The position numbers and the translations under genes are program-made. A stretch of DNA of 64,000 nt from contig CM037595.1 in NCBI GenBank assembly GCA_021018995.1, positions 78,245,159 through 78,309,158 on the forward strand. The letters are read 5' to 3'. Within the stretch, counting starts at the first letter, position 1; each line of letters opens with the position of its first letter. This document shows, piece by piece, positions 9,686 to 35,404 of this stretch. This DNA comes from Chloranthus sessilifolius. Taxonomy: Eukaryota > Streptophyta > Magnoliopsida > Chloranthales > Chloranthaceae. The notes under the pieces were generated by a model, which saw only the letters and a list, made by a program, of their open reading frames with translations, searched no databases and had not been told where the DNA came from.

Positions 9686-10471
9686 GTGCGAGTACGTGTC
9701 CCAACCTTGAATTTCACTCACTTTACAAGCACATTAATGTCGAATAGCACCGAGTTCGGTCAACAACCGACTTACCCAATTCTTAAATCAGAAACCAATT
9801 ATCCACCTCCACCCTTCCCTCGAAATAAGGATTTCACGAATACACAACCACCAGAGGGGAACATGAGAGAAAGAGAAGTTAACTTGTCGCCCCTACCTCA
9901 CATTATCCCTCCACCAATCCCTGCACCTCAACCACTCCAACCACCTGCACCCAAGGCTCATCAGCCAGGCAAAGAAATGACACTCAAGCCAGGGCAAGAA
10001 TATGACCTTCTGTGGTATCTTTAAAAGATCCCAGACCAGATATTAATATTGGAACTCATCAAGAAATTGCCTGACCATCATCGATTATTGATAAAGACAC
10101 TTGAAGACACACAAGTGGATGAAGATATAACATTAGACGAGCTTCATCAAATTGTCCCAGTCATGGCGCAACCTCCATCACTCATTTTCACAGACGCAGA
10201 CATGCCTAAGGAGTCACTCCGCGGAAGCGCAACTCTCATATACCTTACGATCATAATCAGAGGATTCTCCGTACCCCATGCGTTTGCCGATATAGGAGCA
10301 GGACTCAATATCTGCCCTATCACAATGTTAAAGATGCTTGAATACACAGAGCAGGATGTCAAACCTTCAGCACTATCTCATATAGCTTATGACGGCTCGC
10401 GTCATTTCATCAAAGGAACTATCAAACTACAAGTTCACCTCGGACCTATAACGAAAGACTCGAATCCATGA
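9686..10471 (+). pseudogene. Tat retropepsin-like protease region
   Basis: A Pro-rich linker (9690-10020) is followed by a stop and then an ORF with SLIFTDADMP and, at about 10286-10318, ADIGAGLNICP. This is the aspartic-protease active-site region of Tat/Athila-like polyproteins. The catalytic Asp (codon at 10289) is kept, but the usual D-x-G-(S/A)-(A/S) is D-I-G-A-G. Homology ends near 10455, where the frame changes. Confidence 0.65.
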
Positions 10472-10541
10472 TGAGGCAACCATTGTGAAAGTCCGTCTCC
10501 CTGCCCCTCCTAGTTCTCTCCCAACACATCAATAAAAATTA

Positions 10542-10823
10542 ATGAGAAGAGAGATTCGCCCAGACCTCGCCAAACTCTACGGCATCAACCCAACCGTGTC
10601 AAAAGGGTGGGACCTTATGTATCAGCTCAGGTACATCCCCCACACCGGACTTGGTAAAAACAAACAAGGTCGTGTCAAACCCGTTATCCCAACGAAAATA
10701 CACAAGCATATAGGGTTAGGTTACCAATCGGATGCCTGCAAGCCGACTTGTTCCCTACCTCATCGAAATGGTCTCTATATGACCACTTCGTCTATGAGAC
10801 CACTGAGAAAGCAGATATACTAA
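10542..10823 (+). pseudogene. G-patch-like segment of the polyprotein
   Basis: WDLMYQLRYIPHTGLGKNKQ matches the G-patch consensus (hydrophobic-x-x-M/L-G-x-x-P-G-x-G-L-G-K). Such a segment between protease and RT is known in Tat-like plant elements, where it may bind RNA. Reading frames before and after differ. Confidence 0.55.
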
Positions 10824-12539: not shown

Positions 12540-13900
12540 TACAGAAGAAATCAACTTTGGCACTGAAGAGAAACCCAAGAAACTACTAATTAGCGCAACG
12601 CTCAACTCCAAGGAACATCAACAAATCGTACAAGTCCTACAAGAACACCTTGACTCCTTTGCATGGTCCTATGAAGATATGCTTGATTTAGACCCAAGCT
12701 TAGTAGAACACCGTCTTCTCTTGGAACCTGATGGAAAACCTGTTAAGCAAAAACTTCGTAGGATGCACCCGCAAACCGCCCTTCAAGTTAAAGAGGAAGT
12801 TGACAAATTACACAAAGCCAAGTTCATTCGAGTCGTCCTCTACCCTAATGGGTCGCCAACATAGTATTTGTCGCTAAGAAAGACGGTAGAGTACGGGTTT
12901 GTATTGACTTCCGAAACCTCAATCAGGCATGCCCAAAAGACGACTTTCCACTTTCATACATTGACACTCTAGTCAATAGCACCGCTAGATATGAGATGCT
13001 ATCCTTTATGGACGGTTTCTCTTGCTATAATCAAATCAAATTAGCAAAGTTTGACTAAGAGAAGACTTCTCTCACAACAACATGGGGAACTTACTGCTAT
13101 GTCGTCATGCCTTTTGGGCTCAAGAACGCAGGAGCCATGTATCAATGTGCCATGATGGCTATTTTTCATGACATGATGCATAAATGTATAGAAGTCTATA
13201 TTGATGATATATTAGTGAAGTCCCAAATGCAGGCAGGACATATTGAAGCACTTCGATTGATGCTACAAAGAGCTAAGAAATATCAACTAAAAATGAACTA
13301 AAAAAAATGTGTCTTCGAAGTCACTTCTGAAAAATTACTCGGTTTCATAGTCAGCAAGTGAGGAATTGAAGCGGACCCCACAAAAGTTAGAGCTATCCTT
13401 GAGATGCCACCTCCCAGTAATATCAAAGAATTACGAGGCCTAATAGGAAGATTACAATTCATTAGGAGATTTATCTTCCAACATTCAGACAGATGCGATC
13501 CTTTCTACAGACTACTTAAAGAAGGAACTGAGTACAAATGGGATGACTAGTGTCAGCAAGCCTTCGATAACATCAAAAAGTACCTCCTTAACCAGCCAAT
13601 ACTATCACCGCCAGTTCCCGAAAGACCCCTAATCCTATACCTCTCAGAGAACGACAAAGCAATAAGAGTAATTCTGGAACAATATGAAGAAGATGATGAG
13701 AAAGAGAAGGTTATCTACTACCTCAGTAGGACAATGGTCGAGTACAAACAAAATTACACTCTAATAGAGAAGACTTGTCTTGCGCTGGTATGGGCCTCAA
13801 CCAAATTATGGTACTACTTCAGAGTACATAAGATACTAGTACTAGCCCGAATGATCCTCTGAAGTATGTATTCGAAAAGCCCGTAATATCAGGAAAGATT
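12540..13900 (+). pseudogene. pol: Tat reverse transcriptase and first RNase H
   Basis: RT N-terminal part at 12679-12864, then a frame change into VRVCIDFRNLNQACPKDDFP (about 12890-12950), MPFGLKNAGAMYQ at 13107, and the catalytic box YIDD at 13197-13208. The connection domain (LRGLIGRLQFIRRF) follows at about 13430, then an RNase H segment with YYLSRTMVEYKQNYTLIEK at about 13720-13770. Catalytic Asp residues are present, but stops at several points (e.g. 13057-13059, 13360-13362) and a frameshift near 12860 break the frame. Confidence 0.85.
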
Positions 13901-14039
13901 GCTCGCTGGCATATGCTCTTGTAAGAATTCGATATCACTTACATCACGCAAAAGTCGATCAAAGGACAAGCAATCACTGATTACCTCACAGATCTCCCAC
14001 TGAAGAGTGATGAGCCCGTACATGCGGGTTTTCCTGATG

Positions 14040-14704
14040 AAGACCTACTCACAATTCATAACGAAGAGCCCGACAAGATGTCATGGACCCTTTACTTTGA
14101 CGATACTCTAAATCACAAAGGAAAAGGTATCGAGATAGTCCTCCTACGCTCGGAAGGAGTTATCATGCCTAAGGCTTTTCAACTAGATTTCCCTGTCACT
14201 AATAATGCTATAGAACATGAAGCTTTCATGGCTAGACTACGAGCAACACTACAATTAGGTGTTAAATAATTAAAAACCATCGGTGATTCCAAGCTAGTAA
14301 TCATGTAAGTTATAGGAGAATGGAAAACTAAGGAAAAAAGACTAATGACATGCCTAGATACCGCTCAATATTTAGTAAAAAAATTTGAAAGAATCTCTTT
14401 CACGCACACCCCTAGATTAGAAAACGAGTTAGTAGACTCCCTCGCCACACTAGCCTCAATCATTCAAATACCCATTGGACAAAATACCAAGACCTTCTTT
14501 ATAAAAAAGCTGACAGTACTCGCTCACGAGGTAGTATGGACCGTCAAGAGAGAACTACCAATCCTCCCCACCGGCACAGGACCAAATGAAGCAATTGCTC
14601 TAAAAAATCATGTCAAGGCAGAAACTGAAGTCGCTATGTTCAGATTTGAGAAATCACCAACCGACGACGGGCAACCATGGTATTCGACGTTTGAAACTTC
14701 TTGA
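14040..14704 (+). pseudogene. Second (archaeal-type) RNase H
   Basis: WTLYFDDTLNHKGKGIEIVL and NNAIEHEAFMARLRATLQLG form the start of the additional RNase H domain of Tat elements. After a stop near 14268 it resumes with GDSKLVI and YLVKKFERISFTHTPRLENE at about 14370-14430. This second RNase H is what separates the Tat lineage from other plant Ty3/gypsy groups. Confidence 0.8.
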
Positions 14705-14769: not shown

Positions 14770-15733
14770 CGATTCTATATACTCGATAAAATATTATATA
14801 AAGAAGTCTTCACCAAAGGAGTACTGCTACGATGCGTCACAACTCTCGAAGGACAATACATCATCCGAGAAGCACATGCCAGTGCTTGCGGTGCCCACGC
14901 CGGTGACAGAGACTCGCCGATCAAATTACACGAAAAAGCTACTTCTGGCTGACAATGATCAGAGATTGCCACCTCTACGTCCAATTCTGTAAGCAATGCC
15001 AAGAACACGCCGCACTTATCAAAGCTCCATCAGTTGCATTAAACACTATGAGCGCATTGTGAGCATTTTCGATGTGGGCCTTCGACGTTATCGGACCTTT
15101 CACAGGCACAGTTGGGAACACTCACAAGCACGCATTCATACTTACAACAACCGAATACTATACCAAATGGATAGAAGTTGAATCCTATGTCAGAATCACC
15201 ACTTTAACACTCGTAAGGTTTATCGTTCAAAATATCATCATCAGGTTTGGAGTACCCAGAATGTTTGTTACCGACAATGGTCTGCAGTTCATCACAGAGA
15301 AGATGAAGAAACTATACAAGAAGTTCGACATCGATCTACGTCATTCATCACCGTTCTACGTCATTCAAGATGAAGAAACTCAATGATGAGCTATCTTTAG
15401 ACGAGAGGAGAATCGCCCTACTCACGTAGCTAGAGCAACTTGATGAAACATGTCTAAGGGCAACTGATCACGCTCAGGTATATCAGAGGAGAGTGGCCAG
15501 GGCTTACGATAAGAAAGTCCTTGAACGAACCTTTAATATTGGAGAATTAGTCTTGAAGAAAATCATGCCTTCCAAGCACGCCCACCCGAAAGGAAAACTG
15601 AAACCGAAATAGGTTGGCCCTTATGTTATAACAGCCGCATACACTGGAAATAAATACAAACTGGCGAACCGAGACGGGGAAGAACTCCCTAGCCCTTGGA
15701 ACACCATGTATTTTAGAAAATGCTACCCTTAAC
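14770..15733 (+). pseudogene. Tat integrase with internal deletion
   Basis: The zinc-binding region is at about 14790-14950 (EAHASACGAHAGDR). The core starts at 15072 (FDVIGPF, first Asp), and the second Asp lies in VTDNGLQ (codon 15273). The core breaks off after LRHSSPFY at about 15355 and jumps to the C-terminal part (NDELSLDERR at 15391, then YDKKVLERTFNIGELVLKK) with a frame change. The segment carrying the catalytic Glu is missing. A 12-base direct repeat, CTACGTCATTCA, sits at the joint (about 15335-15367). The chain ends at 15733. Confidence 0.8.
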
Positions 15734-17339
15734 TCTATGATCGTCACATCCCGTGGTTAAATACTTATACTTATCGCCCCCGTAGTCGTCACGACCCATT
15801 CATTGGTAGTACGTCATCAATTCTCAGAATATCCTTAAGACTTTTAATTTATTACCTACTTTCTCACTCGGGCAATCTGATCGAAGGACTAGTGACATAC
15901 CTAACCTCTTTCAAAAGCATAAGTAACACCCGAACCTCATTTCCCCTTCCCCCGCCATTGGAAGAGACATTAGAACAAAAAAAAAAGATGTTAGGTTCAA
16001 TCAAAACTCATTATTCTTGCGCTAGTAGGATGCTTTCAAAAATACATCTAAAAAAAATGAGTGAGAGCATTACGACGAATGAACAAGTCAATGAGCTCAG
16101 GGAAGCATAAGCAGGCTGTGAGGACGTCCCTGATAACTTTACTAGAAATGTATAAGCAAGCTGTGAGGGCATCCCTGATGTTCCCATACTACTAGATATC
16201 GTTGCAAGGTGGCGGGAGGAGGATAAACTCCTACTAACCATAGAATGTGAGATTTTGATGGTACCGAAACACGACGAAGAGCTCAATTATGGCACCCCAT
16301 ATCTCCTCTGAAAAAAAGATTGTTACTCATCCCTTTTGCAAAGTGTTAGATACAAACTATTCCCCACATCACTGGGCCTTATCCCCTCTTCTACTTAGTT
16401 TATTTTCGGATGATAAATCGAAAGCCTTACATGATACTCCTAAGAATGAAACCAAAAACTGATGAATGACAACTAATGTAATCACTTACTATACCTACCA
16501 TACTTCTCCCTAATAACCACGGGATAGGATGACCGACACCTTAAGGTAGACCCCTATACACAACTGACCTAATCAAAGAAACCTCCCCCAATTCGATGAC
16601 AGTACTAATAAACTCTTCTTCAAAACTAACTCAAATACCCATGACCGCTCATAGAGTTGAAAGTGCTCATCTCAAACCCAGAAAAGCTCTATTGCATCTA
16701 CACACTGGGGCTTTTTTTTTTTCTTTTGGATCAGAATGAGAATCACCTTGGAAGTGCCAACTCGTCCACCAAGGAATATGAGGAATAATGAAGTTACCAT
16801 CCGAAGAATGCTACCAAAGACACTATACTGCCGATCCTACCACGCTCCTACACTGGGGCATTTTTTTTCTTTTTTTTTTTTATTATTATTCTAGTTATTT
16901 TCTTTCCCTGTTGTATTATTTTTACTCAAAAAAAAAAAAAAAAAAAAAATGAAATAGAACAACATATCCATCCTTTACTACCAGACCTCGGTTTGAGATA
17001 TTCGCCCCCCTTGACAACTAGTAAGGGGGAAACAAAAATTATTGATAGCGTTACCTTTATATGTGCAAATATGAAGCAACCTTCAAACCATCACTAGGAC
17101 AGCTCAGGAAGCATCCAAGTCCCGATGACGGTTGATGGCGCTAAAGAAACTAAAAAGGCGACTGACAAATGCGAGAGGTAACTAAATGAAAAGGAGCCAA
17201 TCAGGTACATCTAAACCAAAAAAATCTATATATATATATATATAATTTTCTTTTCTTTCTTTACACTTGTCACCGGGGGCATACCCCTTGTATATACAAC
17301 ACACACACAATGAACAAAACGGAAAATACACATGCACCC
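15734..17339 (+). other. Noncoding 3' part of Tat element 1 before the antisense genes
   Basis: No convincing coding region. Blocks match element 2 at 32290-33300: a segment at 16090-16290 with the duplicated phrase GTGAGGGCATCCCTGAT, and CACTGGGGC followed by a long T run at about 16705 and 16852. There is an A run at 16929-16949 and a (TA)n run at 17226-17244. The block just before 17290 (GGGGGCATACCCCTTG, then TATATACAAC) is shared with the tails of the other antisense modules and probably lies in the 3' end of the antisense transcript. Confidence 0.6.
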
Positions 17340-20300
17340 CTATTCCCTACGCTGCCGCTGGGATGGCCGATCACCGCTGTCCCCGGTATCATCAACTCGA
17401 AGGTCTGTAGACTGATCCTCCGAAAACACAATCCCAACACCTGGAGTTTGCGAAAACTCTAGACGACGTGGCCCCACTATAGAATCCCCCTCACTGGTCT
17501 GACTAACAGACCGCCTCGATCGAGAACGAGGAGGGTACCTCATGATAACCTCACGAATGATAGAATCCTCACGAGCATCACTCCTAACACGATCACGTGA
17601 CGTGTGACGAGACTGCCCAACCGAGGAACCCGTGGCCCTCGACTCCGACCCATCAAGCTTGCCAGCCAACCTGCGCACTCCCCGCTCACTCCTTATCAGA
17701 CGATATTGCAGCCCATCTAGAGATGCCTGCATCTCTGCCAGTGTCGTCCGGCGCGCCGCCTCCAATGCCTCATCTAAGTCTTTTGTGCGACCATCATCTC
17801 AACGAACAGGTCATCGAGACTTGGAGTGTCTCCAAGGATCCGTCTTGCCTCAGGAGTGGCGCGCACTTGTGTCACCTCTAGACGCACCTCCTCAAGTTGA
17901 CGAACCTACGTAACCAGACCAAGTCAAAGAAAGCCAATGCACATATATACGAATATAGAAAAACTTGGAAAAGGAAAGAGTCATACCAGATCCGTCCTCT
18001 CCCCCAGAAGTCACTCAACCGTCACAAAGGTCACTGGATCGACAGACGGCACGAAAGGAACAACAAACGTAGGTGGCTGCAATGTGAAAATAAACAAATA
18101 CATCAGATAATGCTACGATAATAAATAAGCTACGAACGCAATGATTAAAACATACCTGGGAAGGAAAAGGAGCGGACCCCTGAGGGGGAGCCTCAGGAGC
18201 GGAGTCCGGAATAGCCTGCACACAAAATCAAACAAAACAACACAAAATATGTCAGAACAAAATAAAATAAAATAAATCTAAACTAAATTACGCCAAATCA
18301 GAAATTATACCTGACTCTCAGGGCGCAGAGAGGCAGCAGTCGCCTCCGTCATCTGGAAGTCATCGACAATCTGGCACTAAAAGACCAACACAATGTTAAT
18401 AAACTATTAAGAAAGAGAAACAACAACACCCAACGAACTACTACAATTATACAAACAAGTCGAAGGATTGAGGAAACTTACCCAGTGCTCTAGCTCGGTC
18501 GGAAGCTAAGCCATCGCTGGATCCTCCCGATTAGAGGAAGCAACTGAAGATGGATCAAATGCCGGAGTGGGATCTCCAGCAGTAAGCTCGGCTCTCTACG
18601 AATAACAACAAACACATCAGTTGGTAAGCTCACAATGCTAACAATTAACAAAATCATATTTGTATAGACACTTACCAATTGATCGATCTCAAATCATAGG
18701 CTGGCCTCCACCTCCCGGCCGGCCTGCTGCTGACTGCGTAGTAACCCGATCATCACCACATGACTAGCGACCTCAGCCTCCCTCTCAGACTGACCAAAAG
18801 AAAATGAGACACAACAATTACATCAGAAAGACTAGAAGACTAAGTCAATGTAATACATAGACAATTAAACCAATAAGCTAACTCACCAGGAGCCGCTGAG
18901 TCTCTGCTAGCCGAGCCCCCAACTCATCCTCCGCTCCCCTAGCCCGGGCAACCGAGGTGGCTAGGGAGCGCAACATCTCCTCATCAGGACGAGGAGCACA
19001 CCCCATCTGCTCCATCGCCCGATGAAGGGCATCTAATGCCCCCCTCACACTCGTGAGATGGCCCTACTCCAACATGGCCAGTCTCTCCCTTAATGCCGAC
19101 GCCAACTCCGGCCCGCCTACCGCAAAAGAGCCACTCCCGTGGAAGGGACGTGTGAAGAGGTGCCCACCTTCCAAAGCACTAAACCACCTCACATACTCTC
19201 GAACATCTGCCTCGTCACGCACCCCTGTAACCCTAGTCCCCCCAGCTCTAAAATCAGCCATCTGAAGCGCCATCCACTCCGCAAAGTTTCGGCCAAGAGG
19301 GTCGGTCATCCTCTTCGCCACCTTGTGGCGATTCTCTGGAGGGACTCCCTGAGCGAGCCCCAGCTGCTACGCCACTCGAGATAGGTGGTTCCTCTCCACC
19401 TTCTCAAAACAATGGACTCATATGTCCACGTCAAAGAAAGGCTGACCAGACTGAATCACCAACACAATAGCATCCTCCCCATCCTCGTAGGGCCTCCAGA
19501 TCACCTACAACCAAACAAGCAAGCCAACCCGTCAATGAAACCTTAGACTTCAAAAGCCCAAACAGAACGAAACAAAATGTGAAAACAATGATATATACCT
19601 GCCCCGCATACATGTCCTCAAAAATTCCTTGTGTAGTTTGAAGATCAGAAGACCGGCGACGACACCTCAGCACTGCCCTCCACACATGCATCCACAGAAA
19701 TGTGAACCTCACCTCCAACGGAACCCCCGAACAAAGAAAAGCAAAATGATCATACGCCCAAAACTTAAACAAAAAAAACAATACAGAAAAATTTTGAATA
19801 GCTACTACGACCAAAAGACAAAGAAAAATAAAGACGCCATGACACTGATTAACTAAAACTCACCTGGAGGAAGGGGAGGAAACCTCCGATCGTCGCGATG
19901 CCCCGTCCCTGACGATAAAGCTGCTCATAGAGATGTGCCAATGCAGCCGCACCCCACGCATAGGTAGGGACCCGATCCAAATCCTTGAGAACCATAAAAA
20001 ATAATCGGATGAAACATCCCCGAGTCGAAGAAGAAAAGAGTACTGCACCGAGGAAGTGTATTAAGAATGCTCAAAGCACTCTATCCGCAACCATCCCTTG
20101 CTCAACCACGGGCTCTCGACCCGCCACCACCACACAACACGCCTCATAAGATGTTCTCCCCTCCGAATGATGCCTTGGAGGGACGAAGCCACTAGCAAAT
20201 GTATCAAAGAACCAAGTGACTCAAACTACACTCGGCCCCGACCCACTTGATCTATACGGCACACCCAAAATCTCCTCACACACCTCCAAATACGCTCCCG

Positions 20301-21219
20301 CCATTCACCTCGTGATCGGCTCTCCCTTAAAATAAAGACCAGTGATGCGGACCCAGTCCTCTGGAGTCGGCAGCAACATACCCACTGGAAAGAGAAGCAC
20401 TTGATGCTCCTCCCTCCACCTCTCCAAAATCACCGCAATCAAACCACGATCAACCTGAAAGGGCTCCAGCTCTAGGATCGGCTCGAAGCCGAAAGACACC
20501 AGTTGCGCTCGTTGAAACTCCAACAAGGCATGGTACCAAGTATGAGACTCGGTCCATGCCGAGTTGATAGCCAGTTGGCTCCTATTGAATGGAACAATGA
20601 CCAACAAAAAATAATAATCATGATAACAAGACTAACACACATGCCTATGGCGAGAGACAGACAAAATCTACCAAGAAGCCAATGAAATGTACCAAGACAC
20701 ACAATGACAATTCATAATAAACACGCAAAACATGATAAGAACATTAAAACAAAAATGTGACCTACCTCTCAATGCGGTCATGATGCATGAGTGAGCACAT
20801 AATCAAAGATCAATGATTAATGCAGGTTCGACATGAATTAGAAGGGTTTCCAGATCCTAATAAGTCTATGTCATAACCTAAATGCCTAAAAAAATGAAAG
20901 AACTCTTGCTCACTGGTACTTACCTGGCCTTGAGGAAGAAATCCTCCAGCAGGAAGTGTCTGCGAGCCTGACACTCTTCGCCTTGGTGCTCCTCAACCTC
21001 ATCCTTAGCTCTCTCCTCCTCGTCTCTCTCACCCTCAGCTCTCTCACCCTCAACCCTCTCGCCCTCATCCTCAGCTACACCCTGCTTAATCTTGAGTACC
21101 TCCTCCCTGACCTCCACCTGATCACCCTCCGGTACCTCCTCTCTAGCCACCTTCTCGACATACACCTCCCCGACAACAGCATTGGTTCGAGCCTCGAAGG
21201 TCTCACCTATCTCCTCCAT
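17340..21219 (-). pseudogene. Antisense 11-exon plant mobile domain (PMD) gene
   Basis: Minus-strand gene opposite to gag-pol. Exons (plus coordinates): 20924-21219, 20766-20885, 19864-20581, 19599-19763, 18887-19504, 18676-18789, 18482-18595, 18311-18376, 18156-18215, 17987-18076, 17340-17905. All introns have GT and AG ends, many with full donors (GTAAGT, GTGAGT, GTATAT), and the phase is continuous through exon 10; exon 11 has a one-base frameshift. Exons 2-5 carry PMD features: LEFQRAQLVSFGFEPIL, ILERWREEHQVLLFPVGM, AFLIHFLGAVLF, WGAAALAHLYEQLYRQGRG, and MHVWRAVLRCRRRS. Exon 1 is acidic, and exons 6-11 look coiled-coil and low-complexity. Nine stops in exons 2-10, six of them TGA, plus the frameshift mark decay. 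PMD proteins (MAIN family and transposon-borne copies) are plant-specific; the molecular role inside elements is unclear. Length is about 975 codons. The start at 21219 is the first in-frame ATG of an ORF open to 21351. Confidence 0.8.
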
Positions 21220-21447
21220 CGTGATCCTCTCCAACTCAGAAATAGTAAGATCGTGTCTACCACCACCCTCAACCTCTATCCTAGAAGAAAGAGTTCGAAA
21301 AACTAACGAGAATGGAAGAAACGATGTCTGAAACGGACGGCCGGATCGCAAGATATTGCGAAAACACGAAAACTAGAGTGCAAGGAAACAAGGAAACTAA
21401 AGAATCGAAGACAAAAATGGATAGCGTGAAAATGAAAACTCTTGAGC

Positions 21448-21455
21448 TATTTATA
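21448..21455 (-). promoter_or_regulatory. TATA box of the antisense PMD gene
   Basis: TATAAATA on the minus strand, about 230 bases before the ATG at 21219. A pyrimidine-rich leader lies between. Upstream (21465-21840) are ACGCGC/GCGCAATT motifs like those upstream of the LTR TATA boxes. Confidence 0.65.
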
Positions 21456-21459
21456 GGAC

Positions 21460-22260
21460 ATGGCTAAATCACGCGCTTGAATTCACGCGCTCGATCGAAT
21501 CATGCACCACCGTCCCTGCTTTTAATTCAAATCACACGCCCATCCTTGAGGGCATAAATAGATTGTCGCCCGTTCAAACTAACCCGACGCACTAGTTGGG
21601 CACACCTATCAGACGCGTAATCATCCTGTGTGCCCACACAATGGCGCATAAATCCTAAAGGTCACCCGCACAGTGACCAGCCACCACCCTAATCTTACAC
21701 CCTATACCGTGCATTTAACTTGGTTAAACAACTAGACACCAGAGCTTAATGGCCTTCCGACTCTCGGAATCGCACACGTCCTTGCCGAGCGCAATTTGTT
21801 CCTACACCGGGAGTGAAGCGCGCAATTCCTCAAAAACACAAAAAATATATACCCCATAATAGGTTCACAGGACCAAATTAGGAGACTTCCGACATTAATT
21901 ACCAACCTAAACTATGCCCTTGTTAAAACCAATCCAAAAACACTTATAAAAGAAATAACTTAAAAATATACACCCCAAACTAAATTGAAAAAAATGCTCC
22001 CCAACATCATTTACACACATCAACTAAGACCAAAACGAAAGAAAATGTCCCCCATCACTTACACACTCCAACTAAGCCCTAACTAAACTAAACTAAAAAA
22101 AATGCCCCCAACATGCCCCGATCCAAAATAAATACCCCAAATCAAACCAAGCTTAAATAAATAAACCTCATACCCGACACAAACAAACTAAACTATAAAG
22201 TAAACCAAACCAAATTTACTAAATAACCACAAGATGGAATTAAAAACGTAATTACTTCAT
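21460..22260 (-). other. Upstream region of the antisense gene
   Basis: 21465-21850 holds scattered CACGCGC and GCGCAATT motifs. 21840-22260 is AT-rich and repeats short phrases of the type AAATGCCCCCAACA, which recur in 22810-23230. No coding sequence seen. Confidence 0.5.
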
Positions 22261-22810
22261 AAATGAATAAAATCATTACAAAATACACCGAGGGCATACC
22301 CTCTGAATATACAACTTAAAATAAGAAATTTAAAATCCGCACGTTCAGGAAATGCCCGAATCCGAATTTATTCAGAAAATTAGAAATCTGGAAGAAACCC
22401 GGAGGAGGAATGCACCCTGAACGAATTCTGACAATGATAACCTTTCCCCACCCCGAGCCGACAAAAAAGAAAGAGTGGCTCACGGAAAGCCATCCAGGAT
22501 TTGCGGGATCCACCTTTGGCAGCTCACCTTGGAAAGCATAATAAGGAGGAACAACTAACACTGAATTAGCAGAGCCTAGCGAGAAAAAATAGATATCGTT
22601 CACGAGAATTCTGATCTGACCTTATCCTTGGGATTCCTTTCTACCACCTTTTTCTCCTACAACTCTTCCCTTAGCATGGTAGCAATTCGGCTGCTACCTC
22701 GTATTCCCAATCCCGTCCATTCCCAATAATCTGATCAATGAATATAACTCTTCGGGTTCAATACCCGAGATACAAAAGAGAAAGGAAGAAAAGACATTAA
22801 TAAACGGAAA
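22261..22810 (-). pseudogene. Antisense module II, truncated relative of the PMD unit ends
   Basis: A tail-like block at about 22285 (GAGGGCATACCCTCTG, then AATATACAAC) matches the tails of modules I, III and IV. A leader-like block at about 22765-22800 (GGAAGAAAAGACATT) matches the leaders of the others. Between them is a minus-strand ORF (22316-22603) with GWGKVIIVRIRSGCIPPP, weakly similar to the module III ORF. No PMD exons remain and no TATA box is evident. Function unknown. Confidence 0.45.
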
Positions 22811-23429
22811 AAAATGCCCAAAATTACAAACAAAAAATATGCCCTAAAACTTTTAATTCTAAACTTGAAATAAAAATTCAAAACAAAAAACCCAAAGCCT
22901 TTGGCTTACACATATAAACTATACCTCATAAATTATAAAATAGCAAGTGTCACACCTTTAAACCCTTTCAATCTAATTAAATCTAAACTAAACACATACC
23001 TCTTGAAAGACCACAATCCATGACAACCTAGATAAACCAATAATCATGCAACACTTAAACCCTAAATTCATACATTTCTAACAAGTGTCATCTCAAATCA
23101 AATAAAAGGACTAAAACAAAACACCTTAAACTTTAAACAAAACAAAAATTCCCTGCAAAAGAAAACTCTGAAAGTAAGACCCTGACTTGTTGGAACCTAA
23201 TAAAAAAAATGCCCCCAACAAACCCATCAAAACCAAGTGAACTCTCTAAACAAAACTCAATAAAGAAAACTAATCTTGGGATAAACCTTGAATAAATCCG
23301 GAATGAATCCCAAAACTCTAAGCTAAGTCAAATCCTAAATAAATTCAAACTAAGTCAAACAAATCAAATAACTAATCCATTAAATAGGTTTAAACAAATA
23401 AATAAGTACAATAAACAAAAAAAATACCA

Positions 23430-23851
23430 CTTCATTTATAACTTAAAAACTTTACAAGTATCACCAGAGGCATACCTCCTGAATATACAACCCAAAACAA
23501 AAACTTAGAACCTAACTTACAACCCAAAATGAAAACTGGAAACCCAAAATCAACATAAAGCGAGGAGCAGAATGCCCAATCGGAGGCTTTAGGAAGGATT
23601 GGTTGGGGAACGCATCCCTCCACTTGTAGCACCTTCTCTCCCGCCATTTTCACCTCCTCCGCCGTCGCCTCCTCTACGCTGCCTTCACTGCTCCCTAAAA
23701 GGGATCGATGTGAAGACTAGTGTCCTTATTCCTAATACCACCCATTTCCAAAATAATGTCGCCCCCGAGCATCACCTCAGGAAGAAGATCACAGATACAA
23801 AATAAAAAGGAAGAAACGACATCTCAATCGGAAGGTTAGATCATCCGATAT
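23430..23851 (-). pseudogene. Antisense module III, short relative of the PMD unit ends
   Basis: The tail block at about 23463 (CAGAGGCATACCTCCTG) and leader block at 23805-23840 (GGAAGAAACGACATCTC) are shared with modules I and IV. The minus-strand ORF 23432-23653 (MAGEKVLQVEGCVPQPILPK...) has a counterpart in module IV at 35100-35175. Upstream is a TATA box (23951-23945). The module keeps the ends of the PMD transcription unit but none of its recognisable exons. Confidence 0.5.
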
Positions 23852-23944
23852 CACTAAAGAACGAATTTTAGAATATAAGAGATCCAGAAAAAGTAAAACT
23901 CAAGACTAAACCAGAGAATGAGAAATAAATGAAGGATCCCTCGC

Positions 23945-23951
23945 TTATATA
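23945..23951 (-). promoter_or_regulatory. TATA box of antisense module III
   Basis: CTCTATATAAGC on the minus strand, about 100 bases upstream of the leader block. Beyond it (23960-24420) are GGCGCGCAAT-type motifs, as in the LTR promoters. Confidence 0.55.
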
Positions 23952-24479
23952 GAGTACGGACTTAATCACGCTCCTAGACACGTGCACTTAAATCCGATCA
24001 CATGCAACGCACACTGCGCACAATCCAAAACACACGCTCTGACTAGAACACGTGATGAAATCATCGCCCACGCTAATGGCGCGACGCTTCGATCACCCGC
24101 CTATTATAAATCGCTCAAACTTTTCAAACGACACTCCAGTCGTGCAATACAAAAGGTCGCTCGTACACTGACCTGGCGACGCTTCGATCCCGCGCTAACT
24201 ATAAACCGTGCAACCTTATTAAACGACTACCTCGCACTACGCAATACGAAAAGGTCGTTCACACAGTGACCTAGTGACACCTCAATCACACACAATGATT
24301 AGAGCGCATAATTCATTCACGTGCACACTCAGACACGAGTAAACAGCCCTTCGAACTTGTGATCGCACGCCTGAAAATAGGCGCGCAATCATATTGAGCG
24401 ACCTAAACCAGGCGCGCAATGCCTGACTTTGGACAAAATCTATACCTTCACATCTTTCTACCTCACCTTGATCAAAACT

Positions 24480-25160
24480 CTCATGTCCCATCGTGTAGCC
24501 TCACAAGCTGTTCATAGAGAAAGAAGGAGAGAGGGGCAGCCGCTCACACACATCCCACCACGATAACATGCACACACATGATACCACCTCAATGTCCAGT
24601 CCTATTGTAATAAATTAGGCATGCCCTCATGTCCCATCGTGAAAACCGAAAAGCAAATCTCACAAAAATGTAGGCACACCGCAAAAAAAAAAACTAAGCC
24701 AATCGCGACGCAACCACAACATGATTTGTTTCATAACCTTAGATTTGTCAAATAAAGAAACAAGACACACTTATCGCGCAAATATCCTACAAGCATCCCA
24801 TCGCTAACTATGCTCAGCTAATATCCCATTGCAAACATCACTACCCGAAAAGCTTAAGCAACACCTGCCATGCCATATGATGAAAAGGGAGACAGCTCGA
24901 TCGTATCTTATCACTAAAGCAAAGAGCTCTCTCCCGAATTGCTCGCTACGTAACAGTCGCTAGGACTCATCCAGCACACAACCAAAGAAAGAAAAATTCC
25001 TCAAGTCCCATCGCGACATCACTTCTCCCAAGACGTTTCATCACATTGGCGACTGCCAAGCTCTGCCACAGCGGACATGAAGAAAAAAGAAGAAATCTCC
25101 AAAGTCTCATAGCAGGATCACCCCGACAACCCATCAGTCCCATCACGGACTACACAAGCT
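24480..25160 (+). repeat. Dispersed GTCCCATCGCGA motif array (element 1)
   Basis: At least seven variants of GTCCCATCGYGA lie 30-150 bases apart, for example near 24484, 24631, 24796, 25006 and 25133. The homologous position of element 2 (35830-36700) has a denser set. No ORF overlaps it convincingly. Confidence 0.65.
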
Positions 25161-25895
25161 ACCCATAATTCAGGTAAGTATCATCCCCAGATAAGTACTA
25201 CCCACTTTTCAATTACTCGATATTCCTTGTAAATATATAGTTAGCTATAATTAAATCAAAATATTTTCAAAGCCCATCTCTCTCGACTCGCGAATCACTG
25301 TAGTCCTCCCATAAGAGACAATCATTAGTATTCGCTGAGAAGGTTAGATGGAGTATCCGACATACCAGGTGTCGTCTTGACAACCATATAAAATGTCGAG
25401 TCCACAAATCCCGTACCGGTGGATCTACTCAGCGACGTCTCGAAAGCCACATTTTTCACCGATTTTCCACCGAATTGATCTTAAGTTAAATTCCCAAAAC
25501 TTTCAAAAAAAAAAAAAACTCTTACTTCCAAAACCTTAAAAAAAAAACAAAAAATCAAACTAAAAAAAAAAATCAAACTAATAAAAAAAAAACTAGCAAA
25601 AAATAATAATAAACAGAAAGACCTCTTACCCATCAAATTTCACTTCAATCATCAGCCTAAACCAGCCATTTCCCTGGAAAATCGAACAATGAATATATTT
25701 AATCTAAGAACTTATAAATGCCTATTGAAAAAGGAACGCCTGACGTAGATTGATGTGAGCAATGACGCGCCCGGTCCGACATGACTTGTGAAAGCCTTCG
25801 ACATTATATTGAACTTTTATTATCGGTCCCTAGACCTTATTTATGGACATTTGTATGACGCCTCTCGGTACCTCGACTGCGTCATATCCCTCTAA
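25161..25895 (+). other. Noncoding segment conserved between Tat elements 1 and 2
   Basis: Clear similarity to 36720-37280, including GAATCACTGTAGTCCT (25302 and 36814), the TAAGAGACAATCA block and the TCTTGACAACCA block. A-rich tracts fill 25500-25620. No coding region is conserved between the two copies. Confidence 0.6.
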
Positions 25896-26130
25896 TTGAC
25901 TGCCCCTTGCAGCAGGTCACCACATGCGACGGGATACCCCTTGCACTCACAGATTAGGATATGGTGATTCTCCTTTCTGTTTGACTATCACTCACAACAG
26001 GTCACGCCATGCGACAGGATGCCACTTGCACTCGCGAAATAGGATACATTGACTTCCCCCGTCGACTGTCTATGACAGCGGGTTGCGATATGCGATGGGA
26101 TCGCCCCTGGGCATCCACGGCATGGAACAC
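25896..26130 (+). repeat. Three-copy tandem repeat, period about 84
   Basis: Units starting near 25896, 25980 and 26063 share CAGGTCAC, CATGCGACGGGAT, CCCTTGCACTC and AGGATA. The matching place in element 2 (about 37290-37365) has one unit only. Confidence 0.7.
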
Positions 26131-26401
26131 GCCTTTCGACAGCTACCACTGGGACCCCGAATGCTCCATCTTAGCTTGCGTTGATAGATAAGAAAGCCAA
26201 GCATGTCATGTCAGCATCCCTAGTTCACATTTGTGATTTCCCAAGAGAAACGAGAAAACACCTCAGATGAGGGGTGTCTACTTCTTCGACGCATTCTTAC
26301 TTCACAAGAGCGCGCCGAAGAGGGGCATCCGTAGACACCCCTATTTTGTCCTCTTGAAATATACAAATATATTTGGTCAACCTCAAACCCCCTAACCCTA
26401 A

Positions 26402-26545
26402 CGCGGGAACCATGCATTGAAACAATAGTACATGGTTGGACTCAGGCTGAAATAATAGCTCTGTGGCTCAGACCCCAATGTAGGGATACTATATACTGAA
26501 ATAATAGTATATAGTCGGAATGCAGACTAAAATAATAGTCTCACA
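26402..26545 (+). repeat. Four-hairpin array in LTR B
   Basis: Loops GAAACAAT, GAAATAAT, GAAATAAT and AAAATAAT sit between paired arms: CCATG/CATGG, a CAG...CTG stem, a perfect ACTATATACT/AGTATATAGT (26488-26497 and 26506-26515), and an AATG...CATT stem. This is one full set of the four stem types seen in LTR A. Confidence 0.85.
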
Positions 26546-27774
26546 TTTCAGACCCGACCCGAACCTAGATAGCCCCGAATTACATGCCTACAACCACACA
26601 TGTAATTCGATTGCACGCAAAACCACAAACGTGAAATCAATCCCCCTTTCAGACCAGACTTCCTTTCACATACCACTTCGAGACTTGATCACGCGCCCAC
26701 CATGAGATGCACAATCGGATTGAGCGCCCTACCACCGTCGCGCAATTGGCCTACGCCCGATCTAGTCTTACAGTCCTTGACCCCCAAGCTTCCTTGATTA
26801 AGCGACCTGAAAGAGACACTTAACCGGATTGCGCACCCCACAGTAAGTGAGCAATTAGTCCTAACATTGTTAAACCTAGGAAATTCACTGAGCAAGTCAG
26901 TCAGTCGCTCGCTGAGTCGGTGACTGACTCAAAGCGATTAAGCATCGGGAAACCGGAGCGCAATTCAGCTAAATGCCTGAAACAAGGCGTTTAATTAAAA
27001 AAAACCTATAAAATACTTTTTTTTTTTAATTCAACCAGGAGGATGGACGAAAGAGGCTAAAAATTTCACAGAGAAAGAACGACAAATACAGAGAATTTCG
27101 AGAACAAACCTATAGAGAACATAGCTATGATTTCGAGATTCAAGCTCCGAAATTTTAAGATTCCTCCCCAAGGCCCTAACCTCAGGTAAGAATTTAGTTT
27201 TAGTTTTCGATCGTAGTCTTTTAGTCTTTAGATTTAGGATTCCTTAGTCTTAATTATTAACATCAAATATTTTTAATCTTAGACCGTAGCACCTTTTTTA
27301 GACCATAATTTTAATCTCTGGTTCTAGTCCCCTGTTTCTAAAACCAGTCCTTTAATTTGACGACCTAATTCACCGACCATAGACTTTAATTTTATTCTAA
27401 AATCTTAATCTCCAGTCCTATCATTAATCTCTGGTTCTAGTTTTTAGTTTCTAGAACTAGTCCTTAATCATACGGTCTGATTTTCTGATTTCAGATTCAA
27501 ATTCAGCCCTTAAAATTTTAAATTCTAGTTTTAATTCCTTAGTTTAATATTTTTAAAACCCCAAATATTGATTTAGTTTCCTATAATTCTAGTTTCATAA
27601 TTTAATTCACCATTATAATCTCGAAAATGACTCTAAAAATTCAAAAATACTATTTTATAATCCAAAATTCAATTTGCTCTAATCTCAGCCACCCGATTTA
27701 TTCAAGAGAGCTTACGGATGGTACTCGGGAACGAGGCCAATCCTCCTTAGCATAGTGGGCCCAAAACCCCTTTT

Positions 27775-28560
27775 CTTAAATTTTTAGTAGGATTAATTGA
27801 TTGCTTTAATTAGAATCTTAGTAAAATTAATTCATTACTTCAGTTAGAATTTTAGTATAATATAATTAATTGCTTTAATCAAAATTAGTAAAAGGTAGTT
27901 CCTTTATCTCAATTAAAATTTAGTATAGTTAATTCATTATTTTAAATCATATTTTTTTAATATAGTTAATTCCTCGACCTGATTAGAAAATTTGATAAAA
28001 TTAGTTACTTTATTTTAATTAGATTTTTAGTATAGTTAATTCATTGCTTTAATCAGAATTTTAATAAAATTAGTTCATTTGTTTTAATTAGATTTTAATA
28101 AAATTAGTTTATTTATTTTAATTAGATTTTAATAAAATTAATTCCTTTGTTTTAATTAGTGTTCTAATAAAATTAGTTCTCTATTTCAATTAGAATTTCA
28201 GTAGAACCAGTGTATTTGCTTTAATTAAAGTTCTAGTAAAATTAGTTCTCTATTTCAATCAGAGTTGCAGTAGAACTAGTATACTTGCTTTACTTAGAAT
28301 TTCAGTATAATTAGCATGCTTGATTCAATTAGAACTCCATTAGAATTAACATACTTGCATTCCTAGTACAAGTAGGAGACTGATATTAATTGGATTTCCA
28401 GTAGTATTAGGATATTAAATTAGTTAAACTTCTAATAAAAGCAAAACATTTAAATTAATTAGACTCCTAACACAATTAGGAGACTAATATTAATTGGACT
28501 TTTAGTAGTATTAGGACACTAAATTAATTAGACTCAAAATAAGACTACAACTAGACTCAT
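27775..28560 (+). repeat. AT-rich minisatellite in LTR B
   Basis: About 20 degenerate units of 34-36 bases, consensus like TTTTAATAAAATTAGTT followed by a T-rich half. It accounts for most of the length difference between LTR B (2.56 kb) and LTR C (1.5 kb). Confidence 0.8.
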
Positions 28561-28919
28561 AATAGAATTAGGAAATCTAAACCAATCAGAATTACATTAA
28601 TAACAGGGAAAGAAAAGGAAAACTAAACTATTTAGATTATAAGAAGAGCCAGTGTTGCTGACGTTCGCAGGCAGATGATTTAGTAAAGAAGTAACCCACG
28701 CCTGCTCTAAAGTGTGATCACTGACGTGTTGCAGCGTCGTTAAATATTCGCAACCAACTAGGAATCTTCCTAGAAACCACCCCCCCTTTATTTTCAACAT
28801 TCAAAACACTGCATTGGCAGAGTCCACTTGGACAGAAATGGGCCACTAATTCAACGGGGACCGAGAAGAACCCAAAAAAAGCGCGCACCAATAGGCCCTC
28901 CCTAACAGTCCCGAGTATA

Positions 28920-29905
28920 ATGTCAGGCCGTCATGCCCGAATAAACACAATCAGTGAAGGCAAAAAATACCCGTTCGCTCCACAAAATACAAATCGTGGT
29001 GACAACAACGGAGAGGATAGCAAGCCAAGATACACCGCCAACCAAATTACGGATCTCTCGACCCAAAAGTTGATGAAGGGAGGAGAAAGGACGCCGACTC
29101 CCCTGACACATAACACACACCCTTTGCTCCTCCTACAACAATAACTGCCAAAGACAACCCTCCCCCAAGACACCTAAACAAGACACCACCGTAAATATGA
29201 ACTACCTCCACGATTTTTAGACAATTATATGGCTAACAGAGAGCATTCTAAACGATCTTTCGGAATCAAAAATTTCTGTCGAGACCTCAACTTCGATGTA
29301 CCCACAGGCTTTAAACCCCCGAAATTCAACGGTACAGGGAACCCAAATCACCACTTGTCCTTATTTTGCAACGATTGTCAACCAATATGTGACAATCATG
29401 GGCTCCTTATCCATTACTTTCAATTATCCCTAGAAAGAGAAGCCCTCGATTGGTGCGCCACCCTACCTCTAACAGAAATTGAGATATTTGAAGACTTAGC
29501 CAATAGATTCCTAAACCAATATCAACACCTGACTCATGAAGAAATCAGTTTCACCGACTTAACGAACACAAAATAAGAGGATAATGAAGACTTCACGATG
29601 TTTTCCAACCATTGGAGAAGGCTCGCCGCCCAAACAAGGAACCAGAAAAAGAAAGTGATGCGATAGATATCGTAATCAACAATACCCAAGAACCCCTTCA
29701 AAGCACTCTTATCTTAAGCGACCCTTGTGAGTTCACAAGCTTCTATCAATGTGCTTCACGCATAGAACGTCGCCTGAAGAATGGGGACCTCAGTCTGTCT
29801 ACACTAACATCCGAAGGATCCTCTTCCAACAGCCCTAAGACAAACACTCTAAACAAAACTCCAAGCCCCAAACAAATCAGCGCAAACCAAATAAACTATC
29901 AATAA
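28920..29905 (+). pseudogene. gag: Tat gag, second copy, broken
   Basis: The start MSGRHARINTISEGKKYPFA at 28920 parallels gag 1. The core at 29229-29576 has FKPPKFNGTGNPNHHLSLF and LEREALDWCATLPLTEIEIF, co-linear with gag 1 (7900-8260). A stop near 29574 and a frame change follow, then a segment to 29905 matching the end of gag 1. The N-terminal ORF ends near 29144. Only 30 bases separate the start codon from the inferred end of LTR B, an unusually short leader. Confidence 0.75.
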
Positions 29906-31857
29906 GCGGACCTGCGCCCTAACCAAAGCCAATGTCTATACCCTAACCAATACGCGAACCCACACTATGACCAAGACCAATACCCTGATCAAACCCAACA
30001 CTTATATCCTAATCACAAACCACATCAATACCCTAACCAGACCAAAACCAATACCCCAACACCACGCAGACTAACATCACCTATCACGACCCATTGTTTG
30101 ATCAAATCCAACCTGCATACGATGTTGTATACTCATTCACCCATGCTTCAGTGCATCTGACTAGCTTGATTCGTAAGTGTGAAATCACCTTTCACCCTAA
30201 ATCGGTCACCAAGATCACTAAAATCCAACCTATCACCGAATTCACCCCTAAACTAACTCCACTAATCACCAAAATTGACACATTCACCCTCGAACCAACT
30301 CAACCCACCCTCAAACTCGAAAACTTACTCACGAACTAATCAATCCACACGCTCCCTCAACAAATACCCAAACCAACTCCACGATCGACCACTAAACAAG
30401 CTCACCTATCGGTTCCGAAAGCAATTCCCAAATCAATCTATCCACATACTACAATGTCATTCAAACTTAAACCGATCACAAAGATAAACTTCGAACCTAA
30501 ACCCACGATCGAATCCATTCCTAAAATCACTGACCTTCTCACCCCCAAACCAACTCTCGGATCGATCACCCACCAATTCTGAAACTAAACGTTGAACCTA
30601 AAACTGCAACCGAGCCTCTCCTCAAATTGCCAACCCCCTTACACCTAAGCCAACATCGAAACTCGAACTCCCTACCAAACACATGATTGAAAACCTCGCC
30701 TCATGAACTTTAGAATCAACCCTCGAATCAACTTATATGCCCACCTCGAAACCCAAACTCACTACTGAACTTATCATCTCCTCGACTTTGAAACAAAAAC
30801 CCGTCATTGGGCCTACCACCTTGCCAACTACAAAACTGAACCTCGAACCTATACTTTTCACTAAACCTAAACCAATCATCGAACTTGGACCTACCATCAA
30901 ACCTAAACCGATCACAAAACACATTGAAGCTAAAACTATCGTCGAATCTAAATCTATCCCCAAACCTGAACTTATCACCGAGATTGAACCTATCATCAAA
31001 CTTACCTCATCAAACGGGAACCCGTTATTGAAGCTAAACCTGTCATTGAGCCCGAACCTATCGTCGAACCTGTTCCTGCAACACCAGCTTCACTTGCCCT
31101 TGAGCCAACCACCGAACCTGATAACAAACAAACCCAAAAAGCTATCACCTCCCCCACTCTCGAAATCATACCAGACTTAAATTTTACGACCCCCGTCAAC
31201 ATCCAAATCAACATACCACCTAATCCTCAAATCCCACGACAACATGAAATCAACATCACAACTAAAATCACTTCTAATCTCCAGATCTAGTTTTTCATAG
31301 ACCTCACAATCAAAACGTTCACAGAACACCAACCGACAATAAAATCGCTACATCAAACAGTTGACACTGAGCTTCCCCGAAAAATTATAAATAAAACTCT
31401 AAAACAACTTGGCGATAAGCCCAAAGTACGCACCAAATGAAACAAGCAGAACTAAACGACACTAAACCTCCCCACACCGAGGAAAGGTCCACCTTGGCCC
31501 ACCCCCTCATGTCTCCTTCTCCTACTTTACCTTTGCCTCATCCTATCATTACCTTTATAACACTACCTTCCCTCACAACGGACTCCACTCCAACTTCACC
31601 CGCAAACAACTTTCTAACAACCCATAAATAACCTTGACGACTCTATGCTCCAACTTGACGAGACGTCTCACCCTATCGAAAAACCAAAGAAGGTCCCTCC
31701 CGACAAGGAGGCCCCAACCATAAAAGATTTATCAAAAGGAGAAATTAAACAACTCCACACATATTTCAACAAATCTCATATCATCCAAAACACAAACCTA
31801 AATAAAATTCCCCTTTCATCCCAGACCAATCAGATTAAGAGGGATCGAGGACCCTGA
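29906..31857 (+). pseudogene. Pro/Lys/Ile/Glu repeat ORF replacing pol
   Basis: Short degenerate units encode phrases such as KPKPIIE, EPKPT, PKPELITE and IEPEPIVEP; at DNA level CCTAAACC and ATCATCGAA recur every 12-24 bases. The open stretches are 30094-30339, 30737-31180 and 31645-31857, in different frames. At 29930-30060 a Tyr-Pro-Asn-Gln repeat continues the gag tail. I recognise no family. It may be an overgrown gag tail or linker; the region is a low-complexity expansion with several frameshifts. Confidence 0.5.
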
Positions 31858-33372
31858 AGCAAATTATCTAATTGTCGCTCCGTCCATTTAACATAGCTCA
31901 CTAATCGACTTTCTGAGGCAGTCTCTGCTTAAGGAACTGAGGTTGTATCATAACATAAAAATACATAAAGCTAATATATATATATATATATATATATATG
32001 AAAACCAAAAAATATATACAAAAAAATATATCATTTACCCAGCAGTGTCTCTAACCTCATATTTCATGCCCTTCGAACTCATACTCGACCGAGAACTCGA
32101 AGTCGAGGAACTAGTGCTAAGAAACAATGCCCACACAACCGTCTTGCATGGAAGGAAATCGAACCCTACGCGGGAAGTACTTATATTATTTCGACAACAT
32201 GCCCAGGAAACAACAACAGGGGAAGGACTTCCTAAACCCCAGAATGCTACCCCTAGCTCGATCATCATGTCTCATAGCCTAAACAAGCGTACTTATTTAC
32301 TTATCAACCTCGTAGTCATCGCAAGACATTCGCCAGTCGTAGGTCATTATCTTCGAAATTATTTTGGGAATCATCTGACTCATTGACTACCTCCCTATTC
32401 GGGCAAGTTGATCAAAACCTCTAGTGGATCATAAAACTCTCTTCTTGAAATATAGAAAACTCTGAATTCTCATACACCTCTTCAGCCATTGGAATCAATA
32501 TTAGAGCATAAAAAATAAAAATACAAGGTCCCATCAAATCTCATAATTCTTGCGTTAGCAGGTTGTTCTGAAAATATATAGAAAAGAAACACAATCGAGC
32601 GAGAGCATGTGACGAATGAACAAGTCAATCAGCCCAGGGAAACATAAGCAAACTGTGAGGGCATCCCTGATATTTTCATTAGAGAAGTATAAGCAAATTG
32701 TGAGGGCCTCTCCGGTGTCTTCACACTTCTAGATGTCATCATACGGTGGTGGGAGGAGGATAAAACTCCAGCTAATCATAGAATTTGATGATTTGATGAT
32801 GTTGGACCATGACGGAGAGTTCAATTATGGCACCGCATTACCTACTCGAGAAGAAAGTAGTTGACTACTATTTCAGAAAGTGGTTGAATAAGAAACTATC
32901 CCCAGATCAATAAACCTTACCTCCTCTTCACCCTTTATTTTCTTTTCAGACAATGAGTCAAATGACTTCCTTCAGAATAAAATCGAAAACTTTCGAATGA
33001 CGAGTGATGCAATCACCCATTATCTATCCTTCACCCCATCCTTGTTAAAAGTCACGATACATGATGATTGTTCAGAACTTACAAAATCAAGCCTGACATG
33101 CGACCGAAATGATCAAACTACTTCCCAACATGGGATCATTATATATAAACACACTCTAGGATATCTGCGAGGTCGATAAAAGTCCCGCCGTCACTTGACA
33201 CTGGGATATTTTTTTTAAGCACTAGCATCTTGGTAGCAATGATCAGGTCACGAGACCGACACCCTAAACTGGGACATTTTTTTTTTAATTTTTACCTTAG
33301 TTCTTACTTTTCCGTCATAAGACCCCAAAAATAAACATGTCAAAACATAAAAAATAAGACAAAAAGGATACG
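31858..33372 (+). other. Noncoding part of Tat element 2 matching the element 1 region after integrase
   Basis: A (TA)n run at 31973-31999, then similarity to element 1 at 15750-16320, including GGGCAAGTTGATC near 32400 and the GTGAGGGC phrases near 32660-32710. CACTGGGATA plus a T run recurs near 33200, with a variant near 33268. The ORF at 31943-32386 is not conserved in element 1 and is doubtful. Confidence 0.6.
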
Positions 33373-33377
33373 CGTAA

Positions 33378-34939: not shown

Positions 34940-35404
34940 ATTTTATTTATAATAAAAATTCACTGGAGGCATACCTCTTGAATATACAATCTAAAACGAA
35001 AACATGAAACTTAATCTACAAGCCGAAACTAAAACATAAAACCCAAGACGAACACAAAGCCCAACACGCGATACACGGGAGGTCCAATCAGAAGCAATAG
35101 AAAAACGGGAGGAATGGTTGGGTAACACCCTTTCCATCCATTTGTAAGACTTCTCCCCAGTCGTCTTCACCTCCTAACAGTAGGGATGGATGTATATCGT
35201 CTCTCGATCCCAACACCCCCTAAGCCACAATGAAATCTCCAATCACGCCATTAGGGATCTCCTCGGAACGAAGATCGAAAGAAATGTCGTCGCAATCGGA
35301 CGGGTGGATCACACATTATCACTGAAACACGGTAATCGGGACACTCTGAACTCGGGTCGAACATAAAACAAAATAAAATAGAAAAGAATGAAGAAAACCC
35401 AGAC
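34940..35404 (-). pseudogene. Antisense module IV of Tat element 2
   Basis: The tail block at about 34967 (GAGGCATACCTCTTG) and leader block at about 35280-35330 match module III. Between them, 35100-35175 reads on the minus strand like the module III ORF (GGTGAAGACGACTGGGG..., Lys-Trp-Met-Glu region) but out of frame. A TATA box is at 35412-35405. Confidence 0.5.

Follow-up and report, generated by a model that had tools for sequence, protein, structure and literature searches.

A decayed ten-exon plant mobile domain gene on the antisense strand of a putative Tat-type retrotransposon of Chloranthus sessilifolius

Background

The occurrence of plant mobile domain (PMD) genes in transposons and of antisense open reading frames (ORFs) in Tat elements has been published (PMC11963269, PMC6317226, PMC5418596). 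The available parts of these and related surveys report the PMD family PF10536 in 57% of Ogre elements (PMC6317226), name PMD as the most frequent atypical domain of plant long terminal repeat (LTR) elements (PMC9289625) and describe PMD-A1 and PMD-A2 as encoded by Gypsy elements only (PMC5418596). The host PMD proteins MAIN and MAIL1 work in transposon silencing (PMC5418596, PMC7156037). Plant LTR elements are generally without introns, Ogre and EVADE being exceptions (PMC12786077), and a search for antisense and spliced transcripts has been called for (PMC7264820). Here we describe a PMD gene on the minus strand of a Ty3/gypsy retrotransposon in a 64,000-nucleotide stretch of Chloranthus sessilifolius DNA (C12:78245159-78309158; the window), from a 2.17 Gb genome of 32 contigs.

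The locus is read here, with a probability of roughly 0.8, as a dead copy of a Tat-type Ty3/gypsy element whose family bears a resident PMD gene in reverse orientation, with a TATA promoter, nine introns and a hairpin-marked end. Directly established are the anatomy of the gene, its presence throughout the family, the codon bias of its shared variants and the retention of its introns. The initial annotation of the window, made from the sequence alone, had recognised a spliced antisense PMD gene inside a Tat element and had named antisense ORFs of Tat elements and PMD genes as transposon cargo as known precedents; it had also counted eleven exons and described a complete promoter-to-tail unit, and these two points had to be revised.

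Results

The antisense PMD gene and its host element

Remains of a Ty3/gypsy polyprotein were identified on the plus strand at about 7.4-15.7 kb of the window (element A, the host element). A second RNase H before the integrase marks the Tat angiosperm branches, Ogre and Retand (PMC6317226). In element A an RVT_3 domain sits between RT_RNaseH_2 and rve (Table 1), and by this second RNase H the element is predicted to be a Tat-type Ty3/gypsy retrotransposon of the Ogre/Retand branch.

A spliced PMD gene occupies 21455 to 17271, after pol and ahead of the 3' LTR, and runs on the minus strand, whereas reverse transcriptase (RT), RNase H and integrase are on the plus strand. Two pieces of its exon 2 match PF10536 collinearly on the minus strand: 20583-20308 covers profile positions 4-62 (28.2 bits, E 1.4e-6) and 20070-19864 covers positions 111-180 (42.2 bits, E 7.7e-11), the first below and the second above the cut-off of 34.9. 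The same Pfam scan gave no PMD match for five other antisense pieces. Ten exons are separated by nine GT/AG introns, and the phase is held, since exons 3 to 9 are each a multiple of three in length and exon 1 (296 nt from the next in-frame ATG of the window copy, at 21219) and exon 2 together also add up to a multiple of three. The GC content is 51-65% in exons and 24-37% in introns. The acceptor of exon 7 first picked by eye is AG in only 14 of 30 aligned rows and was replaced by one six bases upstream (28 of 30). The product of an intact gene would be about 940 residues long, with the PMD at its N terminus; the long C-terminal remainder yielded no domain.

Table 1. Positions of the features identified in the window
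Feature	Position	Strand	Evidence or remark
TATA box, PMD gene (TATAAATAG)	21447..21455	-	motif scan and aligned rows
Exon 1, acidic	20924..21279	-	conserved start codon position 21279, lost in window copy
Exon 2, 718 nt, N-terminal half of PMD domain	19864..20581	-	three in-frame stops in window copy
Exon 3, 114 nt	19599..19712	-	splice sites conserved in sister copies
Exon 4, 618 nt	18887..19504	-	three in-frame stops in window copy
Exon 5, 114 nt	18676..18789	-	one stop in window copy
Exon 6, 114 nt	18482..18595	-	one stop in window copy
Exon 7, 66 nt	18311..18376	-	upstream acceptor is conserved (AG in 28/30 rows)
Exon 8, 60 nt	18156..18215	-	
Exon 9, 90 nt	17987..18076	-	one stop in window copy
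Exon 10, with stop codon	17340..17905	-	frame broken near 17.8 kb in window copy
Hairpin motif, 3' end of PMD unit	17271..17298	-	motif scan and pair counts
Second hairpin motif copy, element A	22286..22313	-	motif scan and pair counts
Third hairpin motif copy, element A	23462..23489	-	motif scan; closes short antisense unit with TATA-like site 23951
Hairpin motif in element B	34961..34988	-	motif scan
Stretch between gag and RT, element A	10025..10820	+	G-patch domain at 10536-10820
RT piece, element A	13059..13298	+	RVT_1, 51.9 bits
RNase H, element A	13551..13859	+	RT_RNaseH_2, 79 bits
Second RNase H-like piece, between RNase H and integrase, element A	14309..14701	+	RVT_3, 26.8 bits, cut-off 21.6
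Integrase core, element A	15063..15383	+	rve, 36.7 bits, cut-off 32.6
3' LTR, element A	26331..28889	+	ends by eye; compared with related LTR at 37568-39065

Sister copies

A search of the same genome with the DNA of the PMD cassette returned at least 45 matching pieces; the counts of cassettes are lower bounds because only 37 of 6332 first-look candidates were scored. All 30 returned loci were used, one of them (L009) being the window itself, and the 29 sister copies were aligned with the window. They are 79-86% identical to the window cassette over matched parts, and L029, L031, L032 and L035-L038 are incomplete.

The window gene is a dead copy. Nine in-frame stops interrupt it, each seen in 2-9 rows out of 30, and its start codon is gone, although position 21279 holds ATG in 24 of the rows; because of the stops and a one-base shift near 17.8 kb it is classed as a pseudogene, not the complete unit first proposed. 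The phase of the nine introns stands, and it is this shift that breaks exon 10. The sister alignment places the proposed eleventh exon within exon 10, as its second part, whose frame is lost in the window, and the eleven-exon model was dropped. A net difference of one base from the window near 17.8 kb is common to 23 of the 29 sisters, or 23 of the 25 in which this stretch is fully present; in L014 the one-base difference has the opposite direction, in L024 there is no net difference, and L032, L036, L037 and L038 are without all or part of the stretch. The shift is thus not strictly private to the window copy, L014 being unclear.

The exon borders recur in the related elements. Of 254 ungapped donor cells, 242 still read GT, whereas conservation at 333 other GT sites averages 0.68 (P 5e-5; splice-site P values were obtained by drawing nine sites), and in ungapped copies of exon 3 the acceptor is AG in 27 of 28 and the donor GT in 29 of 29. 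Stops in the model frame of exons 1-9, indels ignored, number 3-14 per row with a mean of 9.3, against means of 30 and 46 in the shifted frames. The TATA box named in the initial annotation is present, and reads TATAAATAG in 13 and TATATATAG in 13 of the 30 rows. Chance ORFs between spurious GT/AG sites would be compatible with a stop-ridden window copy that has no long ORF and with one of the two PMD-matching pieces scoring below the cut-off. The low stop count of the model frame, the conserved donors, the collinear PMD matches and the codon bias described below refute that explanation, to which we assign practically no probability.

On the promoter side all 29 sister copies run on into element sequence, although for no more than about 0.1 kb in L025 and 0.3 kb in L020. 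On the pol side 26 of the 29 do so, the cassettes of L035, L036 and L037 being cut short there. When the next 1.7 kb was fetched for five copies, a second RNase H and an integrase were found opposite to the PMD strand in four. The PMD gene is an old resident of the element family and not one-off cargo.

Selection at the codon level

Shared variants were defined as transversion differences with both states in at least four rows and are presumed to be mostly inherited from active lineages. In the exons they fall on codon positions 1, 2 and 3 at 12, 15 and 35 of 771 sites each (P 4e-4), and in the introns at 18, 17 and 19 (P 0.94). The third-position bias persists at sharing thresholds of 2 to 6 rows. 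When private transversions are added the exon counts become 240, 253 and 275 (P 0.16); the bias of the shared variants beside these flat counts argues that coding selection acted before insertion and not after it. Of the indels common to at least three copies, 5 of the 8 in exons but only 6 of the 36 in introns have a length divisible by three (Fisher P 0.016). The gene was thus apparently selected as a protein while the element family was active.

The antisense unit might instead have an RNA function, pairing with the genomic RNA and feeding small-RNA silencing or limiting copy number. Its exons necessarily complement the genomic RNA, and such a function has been proposed for antisense transcripts (PMC7264820, in the part available). 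The third-position preference of shared variants in exons, flat in introns, and the shared exon indels, mostly multiples of three, speak against it, because an RNA-only role needs no codons. We regard the RNA-only role as improbable; RNA and protein roles could exist side by side.

Intron retention and orientation

An intron was scored as kept if at least 60% of its letters were present. Among 261 intron-by-copy cells 256 could be scored, the other five falling within larger deletions, and introns were kept in 256 of 256. Retroelements are expected to shed introns. Because the aligned copies had been chosen by DNA similarity, a genome-wide search with 25-base patterns was added. The exon 3/intron 3 boundary gave 195 exact sites genome-wide and its reversed control none, and the spliced exon 3/exon 4 junction, the one junction searched in this way, had no genome-wide match. 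These counts support the proposal of the initial annotation that introns survive copying because the genomic RNA, the complement of the gene, shows the spliceosome no introns.

Points that weigh against a resident protein-coding gene

Several observations tell against the reading of the locus as a resident coding gene. Acceptor AG is kept in 228 of 252 cells against 0.786 at 301 other sites, which is not significant (P 0.075). Stops occur in all 30 rows; no copy is intact and no working gene is evident today. Mean identity to the window is similar in exons (0.79-0.86) and introns (0.78-0.90). The codon signal reaches only P 0.06 at a threshold of 8 rows, and is absent from the second half of exon 10, where the sites are few (3/1/3). 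When all distinct indels of up to 60 nt are counted, 30 of 108 in exons and 29 of 133 in introns are multiples of three (P 0.36). TATA-like sites are frequent, with 13 on the minus strand in 17000-26330, and the flank of L046, one of the five fetched, showed no pol.

The 3'-end hairpin and short antisense units

At its end the PMD unit has a motif of 28 bases in which UGUAUAUA or UGUAUAUU leads into a stem of no more than five pairs, capped by a UAUG loop. This motif has four matches in the window, all on the antisense strand, with none expected. TATA-like sites at 21455, 23951 and 35411 head units that end at 17271, 23462 and 34961, respectively; the hairpin at 22286 has no clear TATA-like partner. 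Among 48 instances from the window and the loci, two stem pairs exchange G-C for A-U (40 + 5 and 21 + 20 of 48) and are paired in 47 and 45 of 48, and the outermost pair in 39 of 48; the instances were gathered with a motif-like pattern, which biases them toward paired forms. One degenerate form of the hairpin had 1356 exact matches in the genome and its reversed control none. Rfam gave no match over 15-29 kb of the window.

Plant poly(A) signals include UGUA and AAUAAA-like sequences. Signals of both kinds stand close to the hairpin, which suggests mRNA 3'-end formation.

A short TATA-to-hairpin antisense unit (23462-23951 and 34961-35411, minus strand) is common to element A and to the PMD-less element B described below; the ORFs of this unit scanned in element A had no Pfam match. 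At L051 (C1:85331900-85337300), tandem units of about 1.5 kb combine both hairpin-carrying ends of the PMD gene but lack its body, and this array may represent satellite formation from the Tat 3' region.

Possible origin of the gene

A genome scan with PF10536 gave 20,277 first-look candidates, of which 117 were scored. Among the scored candidates, L001-L003 hold three full-length open PMD frames with no intron within the domain; the start of exon 4 of the Tat gene resembles L001 at 38%. The top-scoring loci L005-L008 were not taken as sister copies, being of a different kind: no matching Tat pol piece was found within about 6 kb on the 3' side in any of the four. The 5' side of three of them showed a single RT-like match (32-35% identity) in two and a Tat-like RT and RNase H in the third. 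From their neighbouring ORFs we take L005-L008 to be borne by Mutator-like elements (MULEs). At L007 together with L045 (C9:87849278-87858900) a PMD frame stands behind a Tat-like RT and RNase H in the same orientation, with an integrase-like ORF as judged by eye, which may be a nested insertion or a fusion.

By eye, L005, L006 and L008 have introns at apparently homologous places to introns 2 and 3 of the Tat gene, in phase 0. In these three decayed loci the donor GT of intron 2 is retained in two and that of intron 3 in all three, the acceptor AG of intron 2 in all three and that of intron 3 in two. Their exon 3 has about 58 residues and so exceeds that of the Tat gene, which has 38. Introns 2 and 3 are thus apparently common to the Tat gene and the MULE-type loci. 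If they are truly shared, the element would have acquired the gene in the form of genomic DNA, from a PMD ancestor that had introns.

These two intron positions, and the known presence of PMD genes in MULEs (PMC5418596), would also fit a host or MULE-borne PMD gene that landed by chance in one retrotransposon copy and is useless to the element. Such an accident is very improbable, given element sequence on both sides of 26 of the 29 cassettes and on one side of the other three, the 195 genome-wide boundary sites, and a Pfam scan of 13 antisense pieces that gave no transposase match. Chance capture is refuted as a one-off event; an ancient capture may be the origin of the gene.

Other features of element A and its neighbours

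The G-patch domain of element A (23.5 bits, cut-off 22, E 5.3e-5) is of a kind reported in plant Gypsy elements (PMC9289625). A Pfam scan gave no match for the piece 10025-10468 (+). This piece is presumably the protease. The piece 13925-14266 (+), beside the RVT_3 piece, had no RVT_3 match in the Pfam scan, and a PDB search with it gave nothing useful.

A purine-rich tract precedes the 3' LTR. On the 5' side is an LTR fragment (5041-7235) that is inverted relative to the 3' LTR and 74% identical to it over 1.87 kb, so that a plus-strand LTR is present on the 3' side only; because the 5' side holds only this inverted fragment, the window copy is considered truncated or rearranged. The stretch 2464-5040 resembles, by eye, the LTR of a different kind of element and ends where the inverted fragment begins. 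Element B (28890-39065) is related to element A, with Retrotrans_gag at 17.5 bits, below cut-off, and an LTR (37568-39065) that matches the 3' LTR of element A in parts only; PMD pieces match within it (28.9-39.1 kb) only at E 0.4 or worse.

Discussion

Under the reading of a resident reversed gene, host RNA polymerase II would transcribe the PMD gene from its own TATA promoter. The antisense RNA would be spliced and translated, and would terminate close to the hairpin, some 1.5 kb before reaching pol. The genomic RNA, its unspliced complement, would pass through reverse transcription, so that the introns are copied, and the PMD protein would act in trans for the element. Hairpin-marked ends could halt antisense transcripts ahead of gag-pol. 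In a fuller form of this model, the whole promoter-to-hairpin gene would have been carried backwards through many rounds of retrotransposition, with ancestral introns shared with MULE-borne PMD genes, the reverse orientation permitting an intron-rich accessory gene and the hairpins insulating gag-pol; we consider this possible, at somewhat less than even odds. The most likely role of the PMD protein would be a nuclear one, directed against the host PMD machinery (MAIN/MAIL1-PP7L) or exerted through it, but we give this role only a low probability; the target was guessed from the part that MAIN and MAIL1 play in transposon silencing. The family offers a testable case of a transposon bearing a relative of its host's own silencing proteins.

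The REXdb survey used ORFs of at least 250 codons and PMC5418596 relied on gene prediction, as their available parts state. A reverse gene with nine introns can be missed because surveys such as REXdb seek long uninterrupted ORFs, and the counts of accessory genes in plant LTR elements may be too low. No antisense PMD gene with many introns was described in the open-access literature searched. Tat/Ogre elements with PMD genes are already published, as are antisense accessory genes that have a promoter of their own; the nine-intron structure, the two introns apparently common with MULE-type PMD loci and the repeated 3'-end hairpin look new.

The closest systems are PMD-carrying Ty3/gypsy elements (Ogre, PMD-A), Tat-lineage elements that likewise carry an additional PMD gene; the available parts of their published accounts describe neither a nine-intron structure nor a 3'-end hairpin and leave the orientation of the PMD ORF unstated. 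Grande gene23 and Retand TRP28 (aORF-3R) are also antisense accessory genes of plant LTR elements (PMC11963269), but carry another domain (TRP28 or none, not PMD) and are presented as ORFs, with introns unmentioned in the part available. The Retand domain, Transposase_28 (PF04195), had no match in the 7 + 6 antisense pieces searched here at E up to 1. The MULE PMD genes have a homologous PMD and two introns apparently at the same places and in the same phase, by eye, but belong to a DNA transposon without a retrotransposon polymerase and have a longer exon 3. The gag-pol intron of Ogre is, as here, spliceosomal and in a Tat-lineage LTR element (PMC6317226); as far as the available account goes, it lies on the sense strand and is spliced from a subset of transcripts, whereas the gene described here has nine introns on the antisense strand.

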